From Halonotius pteroides (GTDB lineage Archaea > Halobacteriota > Halobacteria > Halobacteriales > Haloferacaceae), in NCBI RefSeq assembly GCF_003605635.1, contig NZ_QMDW01000010.1, positions 1 to 64,000 on the forward strand: DNA of 64,000 nt, given 5' to 3'. A program made the translations under genes and the position numbers. The notes beneath the pieces were generated by a model that saw only the letters and a program-made list of their open reading frames with translations, did no database searches and was not told the origin of the DNA. Of this stretch, positions 9,558 to 60,675 are shown in pieces. Each line of letters opens with the position of its first letter. Within the stretch, counting starts at the first letter, position 1.

Positions 9558-11012
9558 CTACAGTATGAGGCCGCTTGTTTGCATAGTGTAGTATACAATC
9601 ATTGCGCCAGCCATCGTCCACGGACCTATACCCACACTTTTGATCTGATCAGCAAAACTCGGCTTCCTACCGTCGAACGTTTCACTCTTCTTTCCATCAG
9701 TTACTGTTTTTACTATCGGATAGCTTATAATTCCAGCAGCGATCCCATCTGCAATCGAGTACGTCAGCGGCATAAGGATAATCGTCAGTGCAGCTGGTAC
9801 AGCCCACACAGGGTCATTCCAGCGGATATCAGCTGCACCTTGGAACATGATGATACCAATAACGACCAATGCGCTATACGATGCGAAGGTCGGGATTGCA
9901 TTTACAAGTGATGTTAGTGGTATCATCAGGAGGAACAGTGCCGCAACAGTCACTGCAGTGAGTCCGGTTCGGCCTCCCTGCTCGATTCCAGCCGAGGATT
10001 CGATAAAGGTTGTCAACGTTGACGTGCCAAGCATTGCACCAATCGTCGTGCCAATTCCATCGGCGAGCAGCGGTTTATCCATCTCCGGGAGGGTTCCATT
10101 TTCGTCAAGCATCCCACCCTGTTGTCCGAGACCGATTAACGCCCCAGCGGTATCAAAGAAGTCTACAAAAAAGAAGGTGAGCAGTACCATAAGAAACGTT
10201 AGCGGATCAACAGAGCTGAATCCATCGATAAATGCGCCTGCTAACGGCGTAATATCGTACTGGCTGCTACTGACAACCGCACCGATGCCCTCGTTCATGA
10301 TTGTCTCGTCAACAATCTCACCAGGTTCAACAACGCCAGCAAGCGTCGCTATATACCCGATAATCGTACTTGTTACAATGCCAATTAGAATCCCTGCACG
10401 TATATCCCTCGCCCACAGTAGCAAAATGAGCACTACTGCGCCCAAGCCAAACAATGACTGTGGGGTTGTGGTGAGGCTGGCAACAGAACCGAGTTCAACA
10501 AGCGTTGCCTCAGAGTTGACAATAATATCGATCTCTTGTAGGCCAATCATTAGCAGGAACGCACCAATACCAGCACCAACGGCTTTTTTAACCGGTTCAG
10601 GGAAGACGGCAATAATTCGTTTCCGCAGGCCAGTCAGGGTAAGCAGAATAAAGAGTATTCCTTCAACAAAAACGGCCGCAAGTGCTGTCTGCCAAGGTAC
10701 TCCCAGTCCTAGTACAACAGTAAAAGTAAAAAACGCCTGTAGTCCAAGCCCGGGTGCCAATGCAAAGGGCCGATTTGCGTATAGCCCCATTACCAGCATC
10801 GCAATGGCCGAAGCGATGATCGTAACGATAGCAATCATCTGGAACACCTCTCCATCGCTGTAACCTTGGATGTCTATCGCTTGTGATAATACAGCCGGAT
10901 TTACGACAATAATATATGCAATTGTAAAAAACGTTGTCAGCCCCGCAACTATCTCAGTCTTGATATCTGTTCCATTGCTGTCTAATTCGAAGTATGAATG
11001 AATGTCTATCAT
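9558..11012 (-). CDS. NCS2/AzgA-family purine permease
   Basis: A 484-residue, very hydrophobic transporter with about 12-14 membrane spans. Family marks are the N-terminal GLTTFFTIAYIIVVNPAVLS, the segment FVDFFDTAGALIGLGQQGG, and LADGIGTTIGAMLGTSTLTT leading to IESSAGIEQGGRTGLTAV. These match the AzgA/PbuG branch that takes up adenine, guanine or hypoxanthine by proton symport. The start ATG at 11012 is preferred over TTG at 11021. It is transcribed divergently from a guanine-deaminase-like gene, which supports a purine substrate. Its codons are AT-richer than those of the trp and nrdJ neighbours, suggesting transfer. Confidence 0.9.
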   Translation of the reverse strand: MIDIHSYFELDSNGTDIKTEIVAGLTTFFTIAYIIVVNPAVLSQAIDIQGYSDGEVFQMIAIVTIIASAIAMLVMGLYANRPFALAPGLGLQAFFTFTVVLGLGVPWQTALAAVFVEGILFILLTLTGLRKRIIAVFPEPVKKAVGAGIGAFLLMIGLQEIDIIVNSEATLVELGSVASLTTTPQSLFGLGAVVLILLLWARDIRAGILIGIVTSTIIGYIATLAGVVEPGEIVDETIMNEGIGAVVSSSQYDITPLAGAFIDGFSSVDPLTFLMVLLTFFFVDFFDTAGALIGLGQQGGMLDENGTLPEMDKPLLADGIGTTIGAMLGTSTLTTFIESSAGIEQGGRTGLTAVTVAALFLLMIPLTSLVNAIPTFASYSALVVIGIIMFQGAADIRWNDPVWAVPAALTIILMPLTYSIADGIAAGIISYPIVKTVTDGKKSETFDGRKPSFADQIKSVGIGPWTMAGAMIVYYTMQTSGLIL

Positions 11013-36989: not shown

Positions 36990-37080
36990 CGATAGGCGAT
37001 GTCCGGGTGCTGTTTTGAGTACCACTCAAGACGTTGTCACAGACCGCGGGGCTTTTGCGCTGACCACACAAATCCCGACT

Positions 37081-37773
37081 GTGACGGAGCCAGTCTCAAC
37101 CGGCTGTGACGCCCTTGATACGCTGCTTGGCGGCGGGTTCGAACGCGGGGTTGTCTCCCAGCTCTACGGCCAGCCGGCAGCCGGGAAAACCAACATCGCA
37201 CTGTCGGCTGCCGTCGGGGTCGCCGCCGCCGGCGACAGCGCGTTGTATATCGACACCGAGGGGCTGTCGGTCGATCGGTTCCAGCAGCTGATCGAACACC
37301 GCACCGACGAGACCCTTGATACCGTCGCCTCGCGGCTCATCATCTCCGATGCGGTCGACTTCGACGAACAACAGGAGGCGGTTCGGGATGCCGCCGACTT
37401 TGCTGAGCGCGTCGAGTTGATCGTTCTCGACAGCGCGACCGGCTTCTACCGGCTCAACCGCGCCGACGACGCGGAGGGCGGCGACTCCCTGCGGGCGGTT
37501 GCTCGCCAGATCACGGAGCTGCTGTCGATCGCGCGCAAATACGATATTGCGGTCGTCGTGACCAATCAGGTCTACACCGATCCCGACGCCGACCGGGTAC
37601 GCGCGCTGGGTGGCCACACGCTTGAACACTGGACCGGTGTGGTTGTTCGGTTGGATCGGTTTCGCGGCGGGAAACGCCGCGCAACCGTAGAGAAACACCG
37701 GGCGAAAGCCGCCGGTGAGACGGCGACCTTCGAGATCACCGACGGCGGGATCACCGGCGTCGACGAGTTTTGA
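37081..37773 (+). CDS. radB: DNA repair and recombination protein RadB
   Basis: A RadA/Rad51 paralogue of 230 residues that lacks the N-terminal DNA-binding helices, as RadB does. Walker A is GQPAAGKT at 30-37, Walker B is in VELIVLDSATGFYRL; AVVVTNQVYTDPD and LGGHTLEHWTGVVVRL are typical. It helps RadA load in recombination. GTG 37081 is preceded by a GGCTTTTGC box about 28 bases upstream. The 3' end is duplicated: the bases GTCGACGAGTTTTGATC, including the stop, recur with one change just after it. Confidence 0.93.
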   Translation: MTEPVSTGCDALDTLLGGGFERGVVSQLYGQPAAGKTNIALSAAVGVAAAGDSALYIDTEGLSVDRFQQLIEHRTDETLDTVASRLIISDAVDFDEQQEAVRDAADFAERVELIVLDSATGFYRLNRADDAEGGDSLRAVARQITELLSIARKYDIAVVVTNQVYTDPDADRVRALGGHTLEHWTGVVVRLDRFRGGKRRATVEKHRAKAAGETATFEITDGGITGVDEF

Positions 37774-37805: not shown

Positions 37806-38939
37806 CTACAGCTCGAGATTCTGGATGAGCTGGCCGCGTTGTTTGGCGTCGGCGTTGACACCCTTCCGCTCTAAGACGTTGCGTTCCAGCTTATCGAGGG
37901 CAACGTGGAAGGCGTGGTTCGCGCCGTAGCCTTCCCCGGAGCCGGCGAGTTGGCCGTGGCTCGTTCGCAGCCGGATCTGCGCTTGGATCAGCGGCGTCCC
38001 GCGCAGCTTCTCTTTGTGTTCGTGGAACCGGACGTGGGCGTGGATTACGTTCATCGCTTGGTATTTGTCGACGACCTGGGTGATCGACTCGACGATCTCT
38101 GCCCGATCGATGCTGTCGAGCAGTTTGACGTTCGTGATCTGGACGTCCATCGACTCTTCCTCGGTGAACGTCAGCGCGCGCAGGACATCCGTTTTCGTGA
38201 TGATGCCGCTGACGCCGTTGTCGTCGTCGGTGACAACCAGCCCGGAGATGTCGTTGTCGAACATGACCTCGACGGCTTCGTCGACGGCATCCCCCAGTTC
38301 GGCGGTCAACACCGGCGAGGTCATCAGATTCTCGACCGGGAGATCAAGCATGCGGTCGTGGTCGCCGCTGCGGTCGCCTTTCTCCTGGCGGGTTTCGTCG
38401 CGGACAACGAAGTTGACGATGTCGTGGGTCGTGATGATGCCTGTGAGCGTATCGGCATCGCCGACGATCGGGAGCCGGGAGATGCCGTGCTCCCGCAGGC
38501 GGTTGATCGCCTGGCCAACCGTGGCTGCCGTCGTCTCCGTGATCACCTCGTCGGTGTAGATCTGGGAGACGGTCAGTGCGTCGAGATTTTCGAGGACGGC
38601 TTCAAGAATCGCGTCGGTCGTGATGATGCCATCGAGGGTCTCGCCGCGGAACACCGGCGCGACGTTGACATCGCCTTCGACCAACAGCCGGGCGGTCTCG
38701 CGGATATCCTCGTGGTGGTCGACGCGCGGTGCGGAGGTCATCAACACCGAAGCTTTTGTGTCGTCTTGAATGCGGGATTTCACCAGCTCGGATTCGCCGA
38801 TCACCCCGGCGTAGTCGCCGTTTTCGGTGACGATGACGCCTTTTGGGTTTGCCTCGTCGAACGCCGCACGAACCGTCGCCAGTCGTTCGTCGGTGTCGAC
38901 CTCGACGAACTCCTCGACAACTATGTCAGTAATATCCAT
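37806..38939 (-). CDS. Four-CBS protein fused to a ribosome-hibernation (HPF/RaiA)-like domain
   Basis: 377 residues, soluble. Four CBS units are seen at about 1-60, 65-125, 130-190 and 205-265 (each with a G(I/V)I..S/T/H..(D/E) ending such as LDGIITTDAI, LTGIITTHDI and VSGIITKTDV), so it should bind adenine nucleotides. From about 273 the sequence changes to MDVQITNVKLLDSIDRAEIV, then VIHAHVRFHEHKEK, IQAQIRLRTSHGQLAGSG and NHAFHVALDKLERNVLERKG, the strand-helix pattern of HPF/RaiA proteins that sit on the ribosome. It has its own GTTAAATAC promoter. Inference: an energy-sensing ribosome or RNA binder; function not demonstrated here. Confidence 0.8.
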   Translation of the reverse strand: MDITDIVVEEFVEVDTDERLATVRAAFDEANPKGVIVTENGDYAGVIGESELVKSRIQDDTKASVLMTSAPRVDHHEDIRETARLLVEGDVNVAPVFRGETLDGIITTDAILEAVLENLDALTVSQIYTDEVITETTAATVGQAINRLREHGISRLPIVGDADTLTGIITTHDIVNFVVRDETRQEKGDRSGDHDRMLDLPVENLMTSPVLTAELGDAVDEAVEVMFDNDISGLVVTDDDNGVSGIITKTDVLRALTFTEEESMDVQITNVKLLDSIDRAEIVESITQVVDKYQAMNVIHAHVRFHEHKEKLRGTPLIQAQIRLRTSHGQLAGSGEGYGANHAFHVALDKLERNVLERKGVNADAKQRGQLIQNLEL

Positions 38940-38967: not shown

Positions 38968-38977
38968 GTATTTAACG
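38968..38977 (-). promoter_or_regulatory. TATA-like box of the CBS-hibernation fusion gene
   Basis: CGTTAAATAC on the minus strand, about 34 bases before ATG 38939, leaving a leader of roughly seven bases. Confidence 0.5.
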
Positions 38978-39067: not shown

Positions 39068-40570
39068 TTACGACCGCCAAAACGAAGGGGTAAACAACAC
39101 GAGCACCGGAATAATCTCGATCCGGCCGACGTACATCAGGAGGATCATCACCGCTTTGGTGAGCTCCGAAAACGGGCTGTAGCTGTTGAACGGGCCGGCG
39201 ACGCCGAAGGCAGGGCCGATGTTGAAAAACGTCGCCGCAGCCGCGCTGAGTGCCTCGAACTCCGAGAGTTCCAGCCCGATCCGCGCGCCGTCGACGACGA
39301 CGACGATCGTCCCAAGAAAGAAGATCACGAGACTCAGCATCGTATAGGAGAACACGTCGCGGATCGTCTCCTCGTCGATGGCTGTCCCGCTGAGCCGCAC
39401 CGGCCGCACCGCCTCGGGGTGGATCGTCGTAAACAGGTCACGGCGGAAGGATTTGAGGATGATCAGCCAGCGTAGCAGCTTGATCGAACAGGTTGTGCTG
39501 CCGGCCATCCCGCCGAGAAACATACAGCTAAACAGCAGGTGTTTGGCCGCCGGCGACCACGCGTTGAAGTCGACGGTCGCAAACCCGGTCGTCGTCAACA
39601 ACGACACCACCTGAAACGTTGCCAGCCGGGCTGTTTCCTCGACGCCGGTCGTCGTGAGCGTCGGATCGGTGACGAGCAACAGGCCCATCAACACCGAGGC
39701 ACCGACGACAAGGCCGAGATAGAACCGAAACTCCTCGTTGCGCAGTGGCCGTCCCAAGTCGCCGTTGATGAAAAAATAGATGAGGATGAAGTTTGTCGCG
39801 CCGACAAACATGAACGGAACGATCAGCCACTGGGCGGCGGGGGCGAAGGCACCGACGCTATCGGGTTGAGGCGAAAAGCCGGCGGTCGCCACCGCTGTCA
39901 TCGCATGCGAGACGGCGTTGAAGGCGTCCATGTTCGGCGCGATCCCGGCCAGCCCGAGCGCAAACAGCCCGCCGGCCGCAAACAGGGTGACCCCGGCGTA
40001 GAGCCACCAGATCAGCCGCGCGGTTTCGCTGATCCGTGGGGTCAGCTTGTGGACATCCTGTGTTTGGGATTCGGTCTCCATCAGCTGTGCGCCACCGACG
40101 GCGAGCTGTGAGAGGATCGAGATCGCCAACACAAGGATGCCGAGCCCGCCAAGCCACTGGATCACCTGCCGCCACAGCAAAATCGCCCGTGAGTGGGCGG
40201 CGAAGTCGTCGATGACGGTCGCGCCGGTCGTCGTGATCCCGCTCATGCTCTCGAAAACGGCGTTGATCGGCGTGGCTAACCCGCCGTTGCCGGCGAGGAC
40301 GAACGGCACCGCGCCGATCAGGCCGACACAGAGCCACGACAGCGCGACCATGAGGTAGGCCTCCCGAGTGTACAGCTGCGTGTCGGTCTCCAGTCGCTCG
40401 AGCCCGAGGCCGGCGGCCAGTGTGATCACGATCGGGACGAGAAACGGGGCGGTCGGATCGCCGTCGATAACGGCAAGACCAAGCGGTGCGGCAAGCGGGA
40501 GTGCCAGCCATTTCAACACGCCGCCGAGCAGCCGGAGGCTGACACGCCAGTTGACGCGGAGGGTGACCAT
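39068..40570 (-). CDS. trkH: Trk potassium uptake channel subunit
   Basis: 500 residues with the TrkH/KtrB architecture: four repeated membrane-pore-membrane units, whose selectivity loops are seen as SGITTTGATVI, TAVATAGFSPQ, SLLTTTGFATV and the weaker FFNIGPAFGVAG. K+ uptake is central for a salt-in halophile. It starts two bases after the trkA stop on the same strand, so the two are co-translated; TrkA gates the channel by nucleotide binding. Confidence 0.94.
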   Translation of the reverse strand: MVTLRVNWRVSLRLLGGVLKWLALPLAAPLGLAVIDGDPTAPFLVPIVITLAAGLGLERLETDTQLYTREAYLMVALSWLCVGLIGAVPFVLAGNGGLATPINAVFESMSGITTTGATVIDDFAAHSRAILLWRQVIQWLGGLGILVLAISILSQLAVGGAQLMETESQTQDVHKLTPRISETARLIWWLYAGVTLFAAGGLFALGLAGIAPNMDAFNAVSHAMTAVATAGFSPQPDSVGAFAPAAQWLIVPFMFVGATNFILIYFFINGDLGRPLRNEEFRFYLGLVVGASVLMGLLLVTDPTLTTTGVEETARLATFQVVSLLTTTGFATVDFNAWSPAAKHLLFSCMFLGGMAGSTTCSIKLLRWLIILKSFRRDLFTTIHPEAVRPVRLSGTAIDEETIRDVFSYTMLSLVIFFLGTIVVVVDGARIGLELSEFEALSAAAATFFNIGPAFGVAGPFNSYSPFSELTKAVMILLMYVGRIEIIPVLVLFTPSFWRS

Positions 40571-40572
40571 TG

Positions 40573-41910
40573 TCAGAGCTTGCTGGTCGTCGCGTCGATC
40601 GCGCCGGCATCGACAAAGAGCACGACATGGTCGCCCGGCTGGATCTCGGTATCGCCGCGCGGCGTGACAAAGGATGTGTTGCGCGTGATCGCGCCGATGA
40701 CGACACCGTTCGGCAGGTCGGCGACCGATTCTTGGATCGGCCGCCCGGCGAGGACGCTGTCGGCGTCGATCTCGACCTCGATGACCTCGGCCTTGTCGCT
40801 CTCGATGAGCGCGACGTTTTCGGTCTTTTCGGACTGGGTGAGCCGCGTGATCTCCTCGGCGACGACGATCCGGGGGTTGATCGCCACGTCGACGCCGACG
40901 GCCTCGAACAGTTCGACGTAGGCGGGTGTGTCGATAACGGCGACGGTTCGATCGACGCCGAGCCGCTTGGCGAGCAACGAGACCAGCAGGTTCTTGTCGT
41001 CGCTTTCGAGAGCGGCGACGACGACATCGGCCTCGTCGACGCGTTCGCGTTCGAGAAACTCCATGTCGGTGGCATCGGACTCCATGATCTGTGTCGCCGG
41101 CAACTCCTCGGCGAGTTCACGGGCCCGATCGTGATCCTGCTCGATCAGCCGCGGGTTGAATCCCCGCTCGCTCAACAGCCGAGCGACGTGGTAGCCGATC
41201 TCGCTGCCGCCGAAGATGGCGACTTCCTCGTCGGCACCGGCCCCATGGTCTGGATCAAGCCCATCTGCGAAGCTGTGGACACTTTCGGGGCTGCCGATGA
41301 TAACAACGCGATCGCCGGCGGTGATGACGGTGCTCCCGTCGGGCACGATAACCGCCTCGCCTCTGATGACCGCGGCGAACGTCAGGGAGTCATACCGATC
41401 GGCCTCTTGGACTGTTTGGTCGACGATCGGGCACTGCTCGCTGATCTCGAACTCGGCCATCTGGACGCGGCCGCCCGCAAAGGGGTCGACATCGACTGCT
41501 GCCGGCAAGCCGACGACCCGGCCGATCGATCGGGCGGTCAGTAGATTCGTACAGACCATGTAGTCGACGCCGAACACGCGGTCGGCGCGCTCCCACGTCT
41601 CAAGATATTTCGCCTGTTTGATGCGGGCGATTGTGAGCGCCCCTGACAGCGCGGCGGCTGTCGAACAGACGACGATGTTGGTCTCGTCGTCGTCGGTGCT
41701 GGCGATCACCATCTCGGCGCTCTCGATGCCGGCCTCCTCAAGAACATCGACATCCGTGCCGTCGCCCGTAACGGTCAAGACGTCGTAGCCGTAGGTGAGT
41801 TCCTCGGTTCGATCGCTTCGCTGGTCGACGACTGTCACGTCATGGTTAGCGGCGAGATCCGCCGCGATGCTCTCGCCGACCTGGCCCGCGCCAACGATGA
41901 GGACGTTCAT
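40573..41910 (-). CDS. trkA: Trk potassium uptake regulatory subunit TrkA
   Basis: 445 residues with two RCK halves. The first NAD(H)-binding fold is MNVLIVGAGQVGESIAADLA and the second EVAIFGGSEIGYHVARLLSE; each is followed by a TrkA_C-like domain (EISEQCPIVDQTVQEADRY and DADSVLAGRPIQESVADL). It sits on the cytoplasmic face of TrkH and controls gating in response to NAD(H) or ATP. Same operon as trkH. Confidence 0.94.
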   Translation of the reverse strand: MNVLIVGAGQVGESIAADLAANHDVTVVDQRSDRTEELTYGYDVLTVTGDGTDVDVLEEAGIESAEMVIASTDDDETNIVVCSTAAALSGALTIARIKQAKYLETWERADRVFGVDYMVCTNLLTARSIGRVVGLPAAVDVDPFAGGRVQMAEFEISEQCPIVDQTVQEADRYDSLTFAAVIRGEAVIVPDGSTVITAGDRVVIIGSPESVHSFADGLDPDHGAGADEEVAIFGGSEIGYHVARLLSERGFNPRLIEQDHDRARELAEELPATQIMESDATDMEFLERERVDEADVVVAALESDDKNLLVSLLAKRLGVDRTVAVIDTPAYVELFEAVGVDVAINPRIVVAEEITRLTQSEKTENVALIESDKAEVIEVEIDADSVLAGRPIQESVADLPNGVVIGAITRNTSFVTPRGDTEIQPGDHVVLFVDAGAIDATTSKL

Positions 41911-46484: not shown

Positions 46485-46712
46485 ATGGTAGACGTAAGCC
46501 AACACGAACTCGTTCCCGAGCACATCCCCATCGAGGGAGCCGAACTCGATTCGGTTCTCGAGGAGTATGGGTTGGATCGCACCGATCTTCCGGAGATCAA
46601 AGCCGACGACCCGGCACTGCCGGAGGCGGCCGAGACGGGCGATGTCATCAAGATCGTCCGTGATTCCCGGACAGCAGAAACATCAATTTCCTACCGACTG
46701 GTGGTCGAATGA
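46485..46712 (+). CDS. rpoH: DNA-directed RNA polymerase subunit H
   Basis: 75 residues, the archaeal counterpart of the C-terminal part of eukaryotic Rpb5. [20 protein letters not shown] and the end [20 protein letters not shown] are diagnostic. First gene of the polymerase operon; its stop overlaps the rpoB'' start by ATGA. The region 46268-46484 must hold the operon promoter; CTCTTTATCC near 46327 and an AT-richer patch near 46449-46460 are candidates but neither is compelling. Confidence 0.96.
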
Positions 46713-48277
46713 ACCGACAAGATCGACGCGACGTATCCAGAGAGTACTTTTCGGAGGATCGCCTCGCCGAACACCACTTCCGCTCGTTCAACGCCTTTCT
46801 CGAACGCGGCATGCAGCAGGTCGCCGTCGAGAAGGAAACCATCGAGACCGACATCGGCGACAAGGAGGGCCAAGAGCCCGTCTACGTCGAACTCGGCGAC
46901 ATCCGCATTCTGACACCACGTGTGCGCGAAGCCGACGGCAGTGAGGAGCTGCTGTTCCCACAGGAGGCTCGTCTTCGCAACATCACCTACGCTGCCCCAG
47001 TTTTCATGGAGATGTCGATCATCCGCGGCGGCGACGAGGAACCCGAAACCGTCGTCGACTCCACGGAGACGAAGGTCGGCCGCATGCCGATCATGGTCGG
47101 CTCCGACAAATGTAACATCGCCGACTTCTCCGATGAAGAGCTCATCGAGATCGGCGAAGACCCCGCCGACCCCGGTGGCTACTTCATCGTCAACGGCTCC
47201 GAGCGGGTGCTGATGACCAGCGAGGATCTCGCGCCGAACAAGATCCTCGCCGAACACGACACGAAATACGACGACGACATCCAGGTCGCCAAGACGTTCA
47301 GCCAGCGACGTGGCTACCGCGCGCTCGTCCTCTGTGAGCGCAACCGCGAGGGGCTGCTTGAGGTGAGCTTCCCATCGGTGTCGGGCAGCGTCAACTTCGT
47401 CACGCTCGTTCGCGCGCTCGGACTCGAATCCGACGAGGAGATCGTCCACCGCGTCTCAGATGACCCAGAGATCGTGAAGTTCATGCTGGAGAATCTGGAG
47501 GAAGCTGACGTCCAGACCACCGAGGCCGCCATCGAAACCCTCGGTCAGCGCGTCGCAAGCGGGCAGGGCAAAAACTACCAGCTCAAACGCGCCAACTACG
47601 TCATCGACCGCTACCTCCTGCCGCACCTCCACGAGGAAGGCGTCGACGAAGAGGAGGTTCGTACCAACAAGGCCTACTACCTCTGTCGGATGGCCGAGGC
47701 CTGTTTCGAACTCGCTCTTGGCCGACGCGACGCCGACGACAAGGATCATTACGCCAACAAACGGCTCAAGGTCTCGGGCGACCTGATGACCGATCTGTTC
47801 CGCACCGCGCTGAACAAGCTGGCCCGGGACGTGAAATACCAGCTTGAGCGCGCCAATATGCGGAACCGTGAGCTCTCGGTCAGCACGGTCGTCCGCTCGG
47901 ATGTGCTCACCGAACGGCTTGAACACCCGATCGCCACCGGCAACTGGGTTGGTGGCCGCTCCGGTGTCTCTCAGTTGGTCGACCGCACCGACCACATGGG
48001 CGTGTTGTCGCACCTCCGACGGCTTCGCTCGCCGCTCAGCCGATCGCAGCCACACTTTGAAGCGCGTGACCTCCACGCGACCCAGTGGGGTCGCATCTGT
48101 CCCTCCGAGACGCCGGAAGGGCCGAACTGTGGGCTGGTCAAAAACTTCGCCCAGGCGATGGAGCTGAGTCAGGACATCGAGGACGAGCAAGGATTGAAGC
48201 GCGAACTATCGTCGATGGGAGTCGAGGGGATCCCAGGAATCGACGGCGTTGAACGAACAACCCCCGCGGACGACTAA
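46709..48277 (+). CDS. rpoB2: DNA-directed RNA polymerase subunit B''
   Basis: 522 residues, the N-terminal half of the second-largest subunit, split from B' as in other haloarchaea. [43 protein letters not shown]-like [20 protein letters not shown] and [17 protein letters not shown] (end of the rifampicin-region equivalent) are seen. The split from B' falls soon after this last segment, with three bases between the genes. Confidence 0.96.
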
Positions 48278-48280
48278 CCA

Positions 48281-50107
48281 ATGGCTCAATCACGAGAAGC
48301 AAAAGTCTACGTCAACGGGAGCCTCGTCGGCACCCATCCGGATCCAGAACAGCTTGCCGAACAGGTACGAGACGCTCGCCGTCGCGGCGATGTCTCCGAT
48401 ACGGTCAACGTCTCTGTCCGCGGCCGCACCCAGGAGGTCATCATCAACGCCGATGCCGGCCGGGCCCGCCGCCCACTGATCGTCGTCGAGGACGGCGAAC
48501 CGTTGCTCGGCGACGAGGAGATCGAGGCGCTCAAAACCGACGACCTCGAGTTCGAGGATCTCGTCGACCGCGGCTACGTTGAGTTTATCGACGCCGAAGA
48601 GGAGGAAGATATCCTCGTCGGCGTCGACGAGGACGACCTCACCGAGCGACACACCCACCTTGAGATCGATCCGTCGCTGATCTTCGGGATCGGCGCCGGG
48701 ATGATCCCCTACCCCGAACACAATGCCAGCCCCCGGATTACGATGGGCGCGGGGATGATGAAACAGTCGTTGGGGCTGCCATCCGCAAACTACCGGATCC
48801 GGCCTGATACCCGCCAACACCTGCTGCACTACCCGCAGCTGTCGATGGTGAAAACCCAGACGACCGAACAGATCGGCTACGACGACCGCCCCGCCGCCCA
48901 GAACTTCGTCGTCGCCGTGATGAGCTACGAGGGGTTCAACATCGAGGATGCCCTCGTTTTGAACAAGGGCTCTGTCGAGCGCGCGCTGATGCGGTCGCAT
49001 TTCTTCCGGACCTACGAGGGCGAGGAGCGACGCTACCCCGGCGGCCAGGAGGATCGCTTCGAGATCCCCGATCAAGACGTTCGCGGCGCGCGTGGTGAGG
49101 ATGCCTACACCCACCTCGATGAGGATGGCCTCGTCAACCCCGAAACGCCGGTCGATGAGAACTCGGTTCTGTTGGGCAAAACAAGCCCGCCGCGATTTCT
49201 TGAGGAGCCCGACGACATGGGCGGACTCAGCCCCCAGAAGCGACGCGAAACCTCCGTCACGATGCGCTCCGGCGAGGACGGCGTCGTCGACACCGTCACT
49301 GTGATGGAAAATGAGGACGGCTCGATGCTCTCGAAGGTCAAGGTACGTGACGAGCGGATTCCCGAGCTTGGCGACAAGTTCGCCTCCCGGCACGGCCAGA
49401 AGGGCGTTATCGGTCACCTCGCGCCACAGGAGGATATGCCGTTCACCGAGGAGGGGCTTGTCCCTGACCTCGTGATGAATCCCCACGCGCTGCCGTCACG
49501 AATGACCGTCGGCCACGTTTTGGAGATGCTCGGCGGAAAAGTCGGCGCGCTGGAAGGCCGCCGTGTCGACGGCACACCGTTCCAAGGCGAAGACGAAGCG
49601 GAGCTTCGTGGTGCCTTAGAGGAACACGGGTTCAAATCCTCCGGCAAGGAGGTCATGTACTCCGGGGTCTCCGGCGAGAAGATCGACGCCGAGATCTTTG
49701 TCGGGACGATCTTCTACCACAAGCTCTACCACATGGTCTCCAACAAGCTGCACGCCCGCTCTCGCGGGCCGGTGCAGGTGTTGACCCGGCAGCCGACAGA
49801 GGGGCGTGCCCGCGAGGGTGGCCTCCGCGTCGGCGAGATGGAACGCGATACGATCATCGGCCACGGCGCGTCGATGGTGCTCAACGAACGCCTGCTTGAG
49901 TCCTCCGACAAGGAGACCGTCTACGTCTCTGAGGACACCGGCATGATCGCCGTCGAGGACAGAGAGCAACGCCGGGTGTACGATCCGGCAACCGGCAGCG
50001 AGGACAACATCCACGAACTCGACGTGAGCTACGCGTTTAAGCTCCTGCTTGATGAGATGATGGCGCTCGGCATCCGACCAACCCTCGAACTTGAAGACGC
50101 GGTCTAA
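48281..50107 (+). CDS. rpoB1: DNA-directed RNA polymerase subunit B'
   Basis: 608 residues, the C-terminal half of the second-largest subunit. Conserved blocks: [77 protein letters not shown] and [20 protein letters not shown]. These contain the wall, active-site lysines and clamp-anchor regions. It lacks the C-terminal zinc ribbon sometimes found in eukaryotic counterparts; the end is TYPE-like [12 protein letters not shown]. Six bases separate it from rpoA'. Confidence 0.96.
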
Positions 50108-58142: not shown

Positions 58143-58488
58143 GTGTGAATATGTCAAAGGCTGGCAGCTATATGGGTGTTTCGCGGCTATAGATGGCTAT
58201 CAGCTGAGAAGCTGAATCAATGATTTAGCTGTAGCAAACCCTCGATGCTCTCGCTGGTTTAGTCTACCAGAAGCTGCGCTTCTGGTCGCCCGAACATCTT
58301 TGATTTTCGCAGGCCGCCAGAAGCGTGGCTTGGTCAGTTTTGCCGCTACCGACTGTCGGACTGTCGTTTCTCTTGTGCCAACTTACCACACTGTCGTCGG
58401 TTTTCGGCTCCTAACCGTCGTTTACGGGCGAATAAACCCGAGGAGAAACACTATGCTTTTCACCCTCCTGCCGGTATCCGTCTGTATA
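58143..58488. other. Intergenic region before fusA with a perfect hairpin
   Basis: No gene seen. CCAGAAGC-TGC-GCTTCTGG at 58267-58285 is a perfect eight-base stem, and CCAGAAGC occurs again at about 58317. A nearby CAGCTGAGAAGCTG near 58201 is also partly self-complementary. The fusA promoter should lie at about 58430-58460 (AATAAACC or CTATGCTTTT). Confidence 0.45.
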
Positions 58489-60675
58489 ATGGGCCGACGA
58501 AAGAAGATCGTCAACGAGTGTGAGCGGCTGATGAACGATCCGGAGAACATCCGGAATATCGCCATCGCCGCCCACGTCGACCACGGGAAGACGACGCTGA
58601 CCGACAACCTGCTCGCCGGTGCGGGCATGATCTCCGATGAGACCGCGGGCGAACAGCTCGCGATGGACACCGAGGAGGACGAACAGGAACGCGGCATCAC
58701 CATTGACGCGGCAAACGTCTCGATGACCCACGAGTACGAGGACACCAACCACCTCATCAACCTCATCGACACGCCGGGCCACGTCGACTTCGGTGGCGAC
58801 GTGACGCGGGCGATGCGTGCCGTCGACGGCGCGCTGGTCGTTGTCGACGCCGTCGAAGGCGCGATGCCACAGACCGAGACCGTCCTCCGGCAGGCACTGC
58901 GGGAGGGTGTCAAGCCCGCACTCTTCATCAACAAGGTCGACCGGCTCATCAACGAGCTGCAGGAAGGCCCCGAAGAGATGCAAAAGCGGCTGCTGTCGGT
59001 GATCTCCGATGTCAACGAGCTCATCCGCGGGATGACCGAAGAGGAGGACTACGACTGGACGGTTTCGGTCGAAGACGGCACCGTCGGCTTCGGATCGGCG
59101 CTCTACAAGTGGGGCGTCTCGATGCCGTCGATGCAGCGCACCGGCATCGACTTCGGCGATATCATGGAGCTCGAACGCAGCGGCGAGGAAGGTCGGATGG
59201 AACTGCAGGAACGAACCCCGCTGTCGAACGTCGTCCTTGACATGGTCGCCGAGCACTTCCCGAACCCTGTTGACGCCCAGCCCCGTCGTATCCCGACGGT
59301 CTGGCGCGGCGACGCCGACTCCGATCTCGCCGAAAGCATGCGGCTGGTCGACGAGGACGGCGAGGTTGTCTTCATGTCGACGGATATCTCGATGGATCCC
59401 CACGCCGGCGAGATCGCTACGGGGCGATTGTTCTCCGGAACGATCGAAAAGGGCCAAGAGCTCTACGTTTCCGGCACTGCGGGCACCAACCGCGTCCAGT
59501 CGGTCGGGATCTTCATGGGTGGCGAACGCGAGGAGGTTGAGGCCGTTCCTGCCGGCAACATCGCCGCCGTCACCGGCCTGAAGGATGCGATCGCCGGCTC
59601 GACTGTCTCCGGCGTGGAGATGACGCCCTTCGAGTCGATCGAACACATCTCCGAGCCCGTCATCACGAAGAGTGTCGAGGCGAAGACGATGGACGACCTG
59701 CCGAAGCTCATCGAGGTGCTCCAGCAGGTCGCCAAAGAGGATCCGACGATCCAGATCGAGATCAACGAAGACACCGGTGAACACCTGATCTCCGGCCAAG
59801 GCGAGCTGCACCTCGAAGTCATCACCCACCGGATCCGCGACAACCAAGGCATCGACGTCCACACCGGCGAACCGATTGTCGTCTTCCGGGAGCAGCCACA
59901 GGAGGAGTCCCGCGAGGTCGAAGGTGTCTCGCCGAACCGCCACAACAAGTTCTACATCACCGCCGAGCCGATGGATCAGGATATCGTCGATGCGATCCAC
60001 CTTGGGAAGGCCTCGATGGATATGCCGGAGCTCGAACGCCGTGAGGCCCTCCAGGAGGCCGGCATGGACAAAGACACCTCACAGGATGTCGAACACATCT
60101 TCAACACCAACGTCCTTATTGACGAGACAAAAGGAATTCAGCACCTGAATGAGACGATGGAGCTCGTCATCGAAGGCCTCGAAGATGCTCTCGACGACGG
60201 GCCGCTGGCTGCCGAACCTGTCCAGGGCGCGCTGCTGCGCCTCCACGACGCCAAACTCCACGAGGACACCATCCACCGTGGTCCGGCACAGGTCATCCCG
60301 GCCGTCCGCGATGCGGTACACCGCTCGTTGATCGATGCGCGGATCAAGATGCTTGAACCGATTCAGGACGTTCGCATCGACGTACCCTCGGAGTACATGG
60401 GCGATGCCTCCGGTGAGATCCAGGGCCGCCGCGGCCGCGTCGACGACATGTATCAAGAGGGTGACCTCATGGTGATCGAGGGGATCGCCCCCGTCGAGGA
60501 GATGATCGGTTTCTCCTCCGATATTCGCTCGGCCACCGAGGGTCGTGCCTCCTGGAATACGGAAAACGCTGGCTTCCGCGTGCTGGTCGACAGCCTCCAG
60601 CCCGAGATCATCAGCGAGATCCGCGAGCGCAAAGGGATGAAACAGGAACTCCCGCCGAGCATCGACTACATCTAA
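58489..60675 (+). CDS. fusA: Translation elongation factor EF-2
   Basis: 728 residues from [20 protein letters not shown]; the longer frame upstream is discarded because the family starts here. GTPase motifs: AAHVDHGKT (28-35), [27 protein letters not shown] and FINKVDRL. The diphthamide histidine is in [20 protein letters not shown]. Drives ribosomal translocation. It is separated from rps7 by about 2.6 kb holding two other genes, unlike the compact str arrangement. Confidence 0.97.

Follow-up and report, generated by a model that had tools for sequence, protein, structure and literature searches.

HibA has been introduced as "a family of ribosome hibernation factors widespread in Archaea" (PMC13324472, Nat Commun, April 2026), a widespread archaeal answer to ribosome hibernation whose published biology comes from hyperthermophiles. 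In HibA of P. abyssi (Pab0961, PDB 9sr9 series) a four-CBS module (residues 1-269) is followed by an HPF/RaiA C-terminal domain (residues 270-392), and in this family the HPF domain carries two insertions specific to archaea (PMC13324472). The C-terminal domain occupies the mRNA channel of the 30S subunit and is the part through which 30S binding takes place, and the CBS module was found at three positions on the 50S subunit, including the peptidyl-transferase centre, which it reaches via the loop of residues 190-207 (PMC13324472). Since the CBS module itself binds the ribosome, occupying the tRNA sites and the peptidyl-transferase centre, it is more than a sensor (PMC13324472). P. abyssi HibA inhibits translation in vitro, and a T. 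barophilus strain with HibA deleted recovers with a delay and has smaller 70S pools (PMC13324472). Other archaeal hibernation factors, Dri and the standalone CBS-module proteins, also bring CBS modules to the ribosome but lack an HPF domain, whereas bacterial HPF, RaiA and pY consist of a standalone HPF domain, or an HPF domain plus a dimerisation domain, and have no CBS module. A CBS-hibernation protein, HVO_2384, has also been described in Haloferax volcanii (PMC12607858).

The DNA analysed here, referred to as the window, is a stretch of 64,000 nucleotides from a Halonotius-like haloarchaeon. An open reading frame with an ATG start at 37806..38939 on the minus strand encodes a protein of 377 residues that is present in one copy in the genome, and its closest named ortholog, from Halonotius aquaticus, is 97% identical. 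Pfam detected CBS domains in 4 stretches (E 1.1e-30), in agreement with the four CBS domains proposed in the preliminary description, and together with the alignment to P. abyssi HibA this places the CBS module at residues 1-257 (38169..38939, minus strand). NCBIfam matches to IMP dehydrogenase and other families were rejected because they reflected common CBS domains only and all fell far under the cut-off. A search of PDB sequences with the window protein returned 9l96_a (E 6e-73) and 9sr9_H (E 3.7e-45), the latter aligning over window residues 3-377 against 6-390. From its matching length (392) and domain limits, we take 9sr9_H to be P. abyssi HibA. In the PDB file it carries only the name "Dehydrogenase", which fits the misannotation of Pab0961 noted previously (PMC3820547), and this name as well as "CBS domain-containing protein" were taken as annotation and not as evidence. 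Although distant in sequence, the window protein and P. abyssi HibA share the four-CBS module plus HPF/RaiA domain, homology over the full length, similar C-terminal tails (IEKLEL / IQNLEL) and an Asp pair in CBS3/4. In the alignment the segment that joins the CBS module to the first HPF helix has 3 residues fewer in the window protein, and the beta14-beta15 region aligns without gaps. Dri has two CBS modules (PMC13324472), whereas the window protein has one four-CBS module and an HPF domain, and is therefore not Dri. These data suggest that the window protein is HibA, the archaeal ribosome hibernation factor that blocks idle ribosomes, with a probability of about 0.92. The fusion of CBS and HPF domains is thus already published under that name, and the window gene is one more ordinary ortholog in a family whose descriptions date from 2025-2026. 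The interest that is left lies in a split of haloarchaeal HibA into two types, a link to radB and a possible acetylation switch; in the published HibA work no description was found of the two haloarchaeal types, of the convergence of hibA and radB, or of the acetylated lysines of HVO_2384 as lying at a hairpin tip.

The assignment of the C-terminal domain (residues 262-377; 37809..38156, minus strand) required more than Pfam, as the Ribosomal_S30AE match at residues 282-359 (E 0.0078, 17.4 bits) was under the Pfam cut-off of 23.7. Matches to this family with E 0.01 or better were found in 27 of 43 haloarchaeal relatives (best E 1.9e-5), and no further C-terminal domain was found by Pfam beyond the HPF domain. 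A profile of the HPF domain compared with PDB matched 9l96_a (E 4e-42) and 9sr9_H (E 8e-17), but no bacterial HPF in PDB was matched significantly by this profile alone (5njt_x, E 0.54), so the connection to bacterial HPF is carried by the fold and the weak Pfam matches. In the AF2 model (pLDDT 81) the domain is predicted to adopt the HPF/RaiA fold. When this model was compared with PDB using Foldseek, the best 15 matches were all HPF/RaiA/pY proteins, led by the chloroplast, mycobacterial, Listeria, Vibrio and E. coli hibernation factors (E 1.5e-5 to 1e-3). VIA-align likewise gave only HPF/RaiA/pY proteins in its best 30 rows, with Z between 7.2 and 11.2 (the highest for 6h4n_x, a hibernation factor of E. 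coli), and unrelated folds set in at 7.2. The structural comparison with RaiA that the preliminary description had suggested thus returned the RaiA fold, and its reading of the protein as an archaeal hibernation factor coincides with the independent publication of HibA (PMC13324472). The fold is common to the bacterial factors at an identity of about 17%, but the window protein is fused to CBS domains and lacks the bacterial dimerisation domain. A full-length AF2 model built with 11 close relatives was discarded (pLDDT 48, pTM 0.33), and the assignment of the CBS module therefore rests on sequence homology.

CBS modules of related architecture act as regulators, as in HhpR (PMC13324472), and HhpR was among the NCBIfam CBS matches of the window protein. 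It could then be argued that the protein is a general CBS energy sensor or a transcription regulator similar to CM-3 or HhpR, in which the HPF domain is a relic that does not bind ribosomes. This is very improbable, as the HPF domain is well conserved, with seven residues (H308, E310, R313, G314, G335, E336 and G339) invariant in 43 relatives, the HPF fold is intact in the model, and P. abyssi HibA binds 30S via this very domain (PMC13324472).

The identification as HibA draws on direct observations of domain architecture, fold, full-length homology, conservation and a conserved Asp pair. By analogy, the haloarchaeal protein would have the same activity on ribosomes as HibA of P. abyssi and T. 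barophilus, given the full-length homology, the fold, a CBS3-CBS4 loop of the same length as in P. abyssi, and the invariant Asp173 and Asp251. Under stress or in stationary phase the HPF/RaiA domain would anchor itself in an idle 30S subunit, at its mRNA channel and decoding centre, and the tethered four-CBS module would swing across the vacant tRNA sites of the 50S subunit, including the peptidyl-transferase centre, which the CBS3-CBS4 loop could enter. HibA would in this way block translation and protect the ribosome until mRNA and tRNA return. The loop corresponds to residues 180-201 (38337..38402, minus strand), the position of the HibA "PTC loop" in the alignment, and is 22 residues long in both the window protein and P. 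abyssi HibA, conserved in length but not in sequence.

The preliminary description had also proposed a direct energy sensor. The nucleotide-binding part of this proposal stands for P. abyssi, whose CBS module binds AMP more tightly than ADP and ADP more tightly than ATP (Kd 12 uM, 65 uM and 113 uM), but the step from nucleotide to ribosome does not, as ribosome binding of P. abyssi HibA did not clearly change with AMP or ATP (PMC13324472). In the haloarchaeal protein the probable binding site for adenylates is between CBS3 and CBS4. The last part of CBS3 carries Asp173 (38421..38423, minus strand), the expected ribose contact of an adenylate site at the CBS3/CBS4 interface described in PMC13324472, and Asp251 at the end of CBS4 (38187..38189, minus strand) is the second conserved Asp of the predicted site; both are invariant in 62 of 62 aligned sequences, which is consistent with that prediction. 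Energy sensing by HibA is plausible but unproven. Asp109 in CBS2 (38613-38615) is kept in 57 of the 62 sequences and is Met in P. abyssi, and its conservation hints that CBS1/CBS2 of the haloarchaeal proteins might harbour an additional ligand site.

A HibA match was found in 54 of 59 sampled genomes of the order and in 59 of 147 genomes sampled across the phylum. All 44 near-complete genomes of the order encode the protein, and the fusion is thus not due to chance. A tree of 62 HibA sequences, whose root is unsure because the very long P. abyssi branch is the only outgroup, separates the type of the window protein (type A) from a second group that holds 9l96 (support 95/94; 94/87 on the type A side). 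Type A has a CBS3-CBS4 loop of 22-23 residues and a C-terminus like GQLLRKLGEL, whereas the loop of the other group has 33-47 residues and is mostly glycine-rich, with an FGWLLE-like tail in the 9l96-like members. A type B protein matches 9l96_a from end to end (E 6e-193). Chain a of 9l96, 9l98, 9l9c and 9l9v therefore has the domain order of the window protein but belongs to another haloarchaeal clade with a long glycine-rich loop and a different tail. Glycine-rich loops of 36-47 residues, of the 9l96 type, were seen at loci L045-L053, L056-L058 and L063. Four early branches of the long-loop group (families f9 and f11) lie 3.6-3.9 kb from radB; given this distance they may hold the position of type A, and the history of the split is unsettled.

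In the sample of the order, type A is near universal and type B scattered, and this pattern, together with the different loop lengths and the separate clades, would fit a division of labour in which the short-loop type A has a housekeeping role and the long loop of type B reaches ribosomal sites beyond the range of the short one. However, P. abyssi HibA enters the peptidyl-transferase centre with an equally short loop (PMC13324472), and such a division is doubtful. No ribosome experiments with a type A haloarchaeal HibA were found in the literature. With the short-loop type near universal among haloarchaea, the genetically tractable Haloferax is a system in which energy sensing, the function of the PTC loop and the link to RadB can be tested.

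The neighbour of hibA in the window is the recombination mediator gene radB (36997..37773, plus strand; Pfam Rad51 8.4e-29, with support from synteny), which converges on hibA with a spacing of about 32-38 bp. Among the 46 genomes in which hibA and radB share a contig, the two are convergent and less than 500 bp apart in 24, from 7 families, lie within 6 kb in 33 and are farther apart in 13. In H. volcanii RadB is HVO_2383 (PMC7776575). HVO_2384 is likely the ortholog of the window hibA by position, size and KEK motif, as its number adjoins that of RadB, also the neighbour in the window, and its architecture as described in PMC12607858 is alike. Pab0961 co-purified with RadB, GINS23 and a Sir2 deacylase, and an association of HVO_2384 with RadA and RadB is cited as a personal communication (PMC3820547). 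The authors of PMC13324472 mention partners of HibA from recombination and replication and suggest one that may sequester it, though the main text contains neither "RadB" nor synteny. As HVO_2384 also co-purified with a Pat2 variant, besides its reported co-purification with RadA/RadB, ribosomes may not be its sole partner. The convergence and proximity of the genes, the co-purifications and the suggested sequestering partner could together indicate that HibA has a second role in genome maintenance, binding RadB/RadA and tying energy state or ribosome idling to recombination or replication restart, either as its main role or by sequestration there. This seems unlikely. Convergent genes do not have a common promoter or transcript, so adjacency need not mean joint function, and in several families (f4, f10, f14 and f17) the two genes are no longer linked. 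Pull-downs of abundant ribosome-binding proteins are also likely to yield false positives, and the main text of the H. volcanii RadB paper does not mention any CBS protein. The link between hibA and radB remains a lead.

HVO_2384 is acetylated at K311/K313 (PMC12607858). The conserved KEK of the motif HxHKEKLRG lies at residues 311-313 in type A proteins of 380 residues and at 309-311 in the window protein (38007..38015, minus strand), and from this position it is likely the counterpart of the acetylated lysines. In the AF2 model KEK is at the tip of the hairpin that connects HPF strands two and three (37-51 and 54-65 in domain numbering), and in P. abyssi an archaeal HPF insertion in the same hairpin region contacts uS12 (PMC13324472). 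Acetylation there could weaken ribosome binding. A more speculative proposal, and one we consider improbable, is that the adenylate state, together with acetylation of lysines in the decoding-centre hairpin (K309/K311), directs HibA either to ribosomes, which it plugs, or to RadB/RadA at damaged or stalled DNA. If true, this would account for the conserved hibA-radB neighbourhood and for the reported associations with RadB, Sir2 and Pat2.

Directly upstream of hibA on the same strand are trkH and trkA (39068-41910), for potassium uptake. This linkage is present in close Halonotius relatives and was not found in the other loci examined with 5-kb flanks. An operon of trkA, trkH and hibA is disfavoured by the patchy linkage and by a gap of 128 bp with a TATA-like box, which together favour a separate promoter for hibA. 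The box, TTAAATA, is 29-36 bp upstream of the hibA ATG (38969..38975, minus strand) and is a possible promoter with a very short leader. Elsewhere in the window, an open reading frame of 338 residues at 9847-10863 has no Pfam match and a GC content of 51%, compared to about 62% around it, and this low-GC stretch is possibly an acquired segment. The B subunit of RNA polymerase is apparently encoded in two adjacent open reading frames at 46709-50107, with Rpb2 N-terminal domains at 46709-48277, and such a split is expected in haloarchaea. A homolog of elongation factor 2/G is found at 58300-60675.
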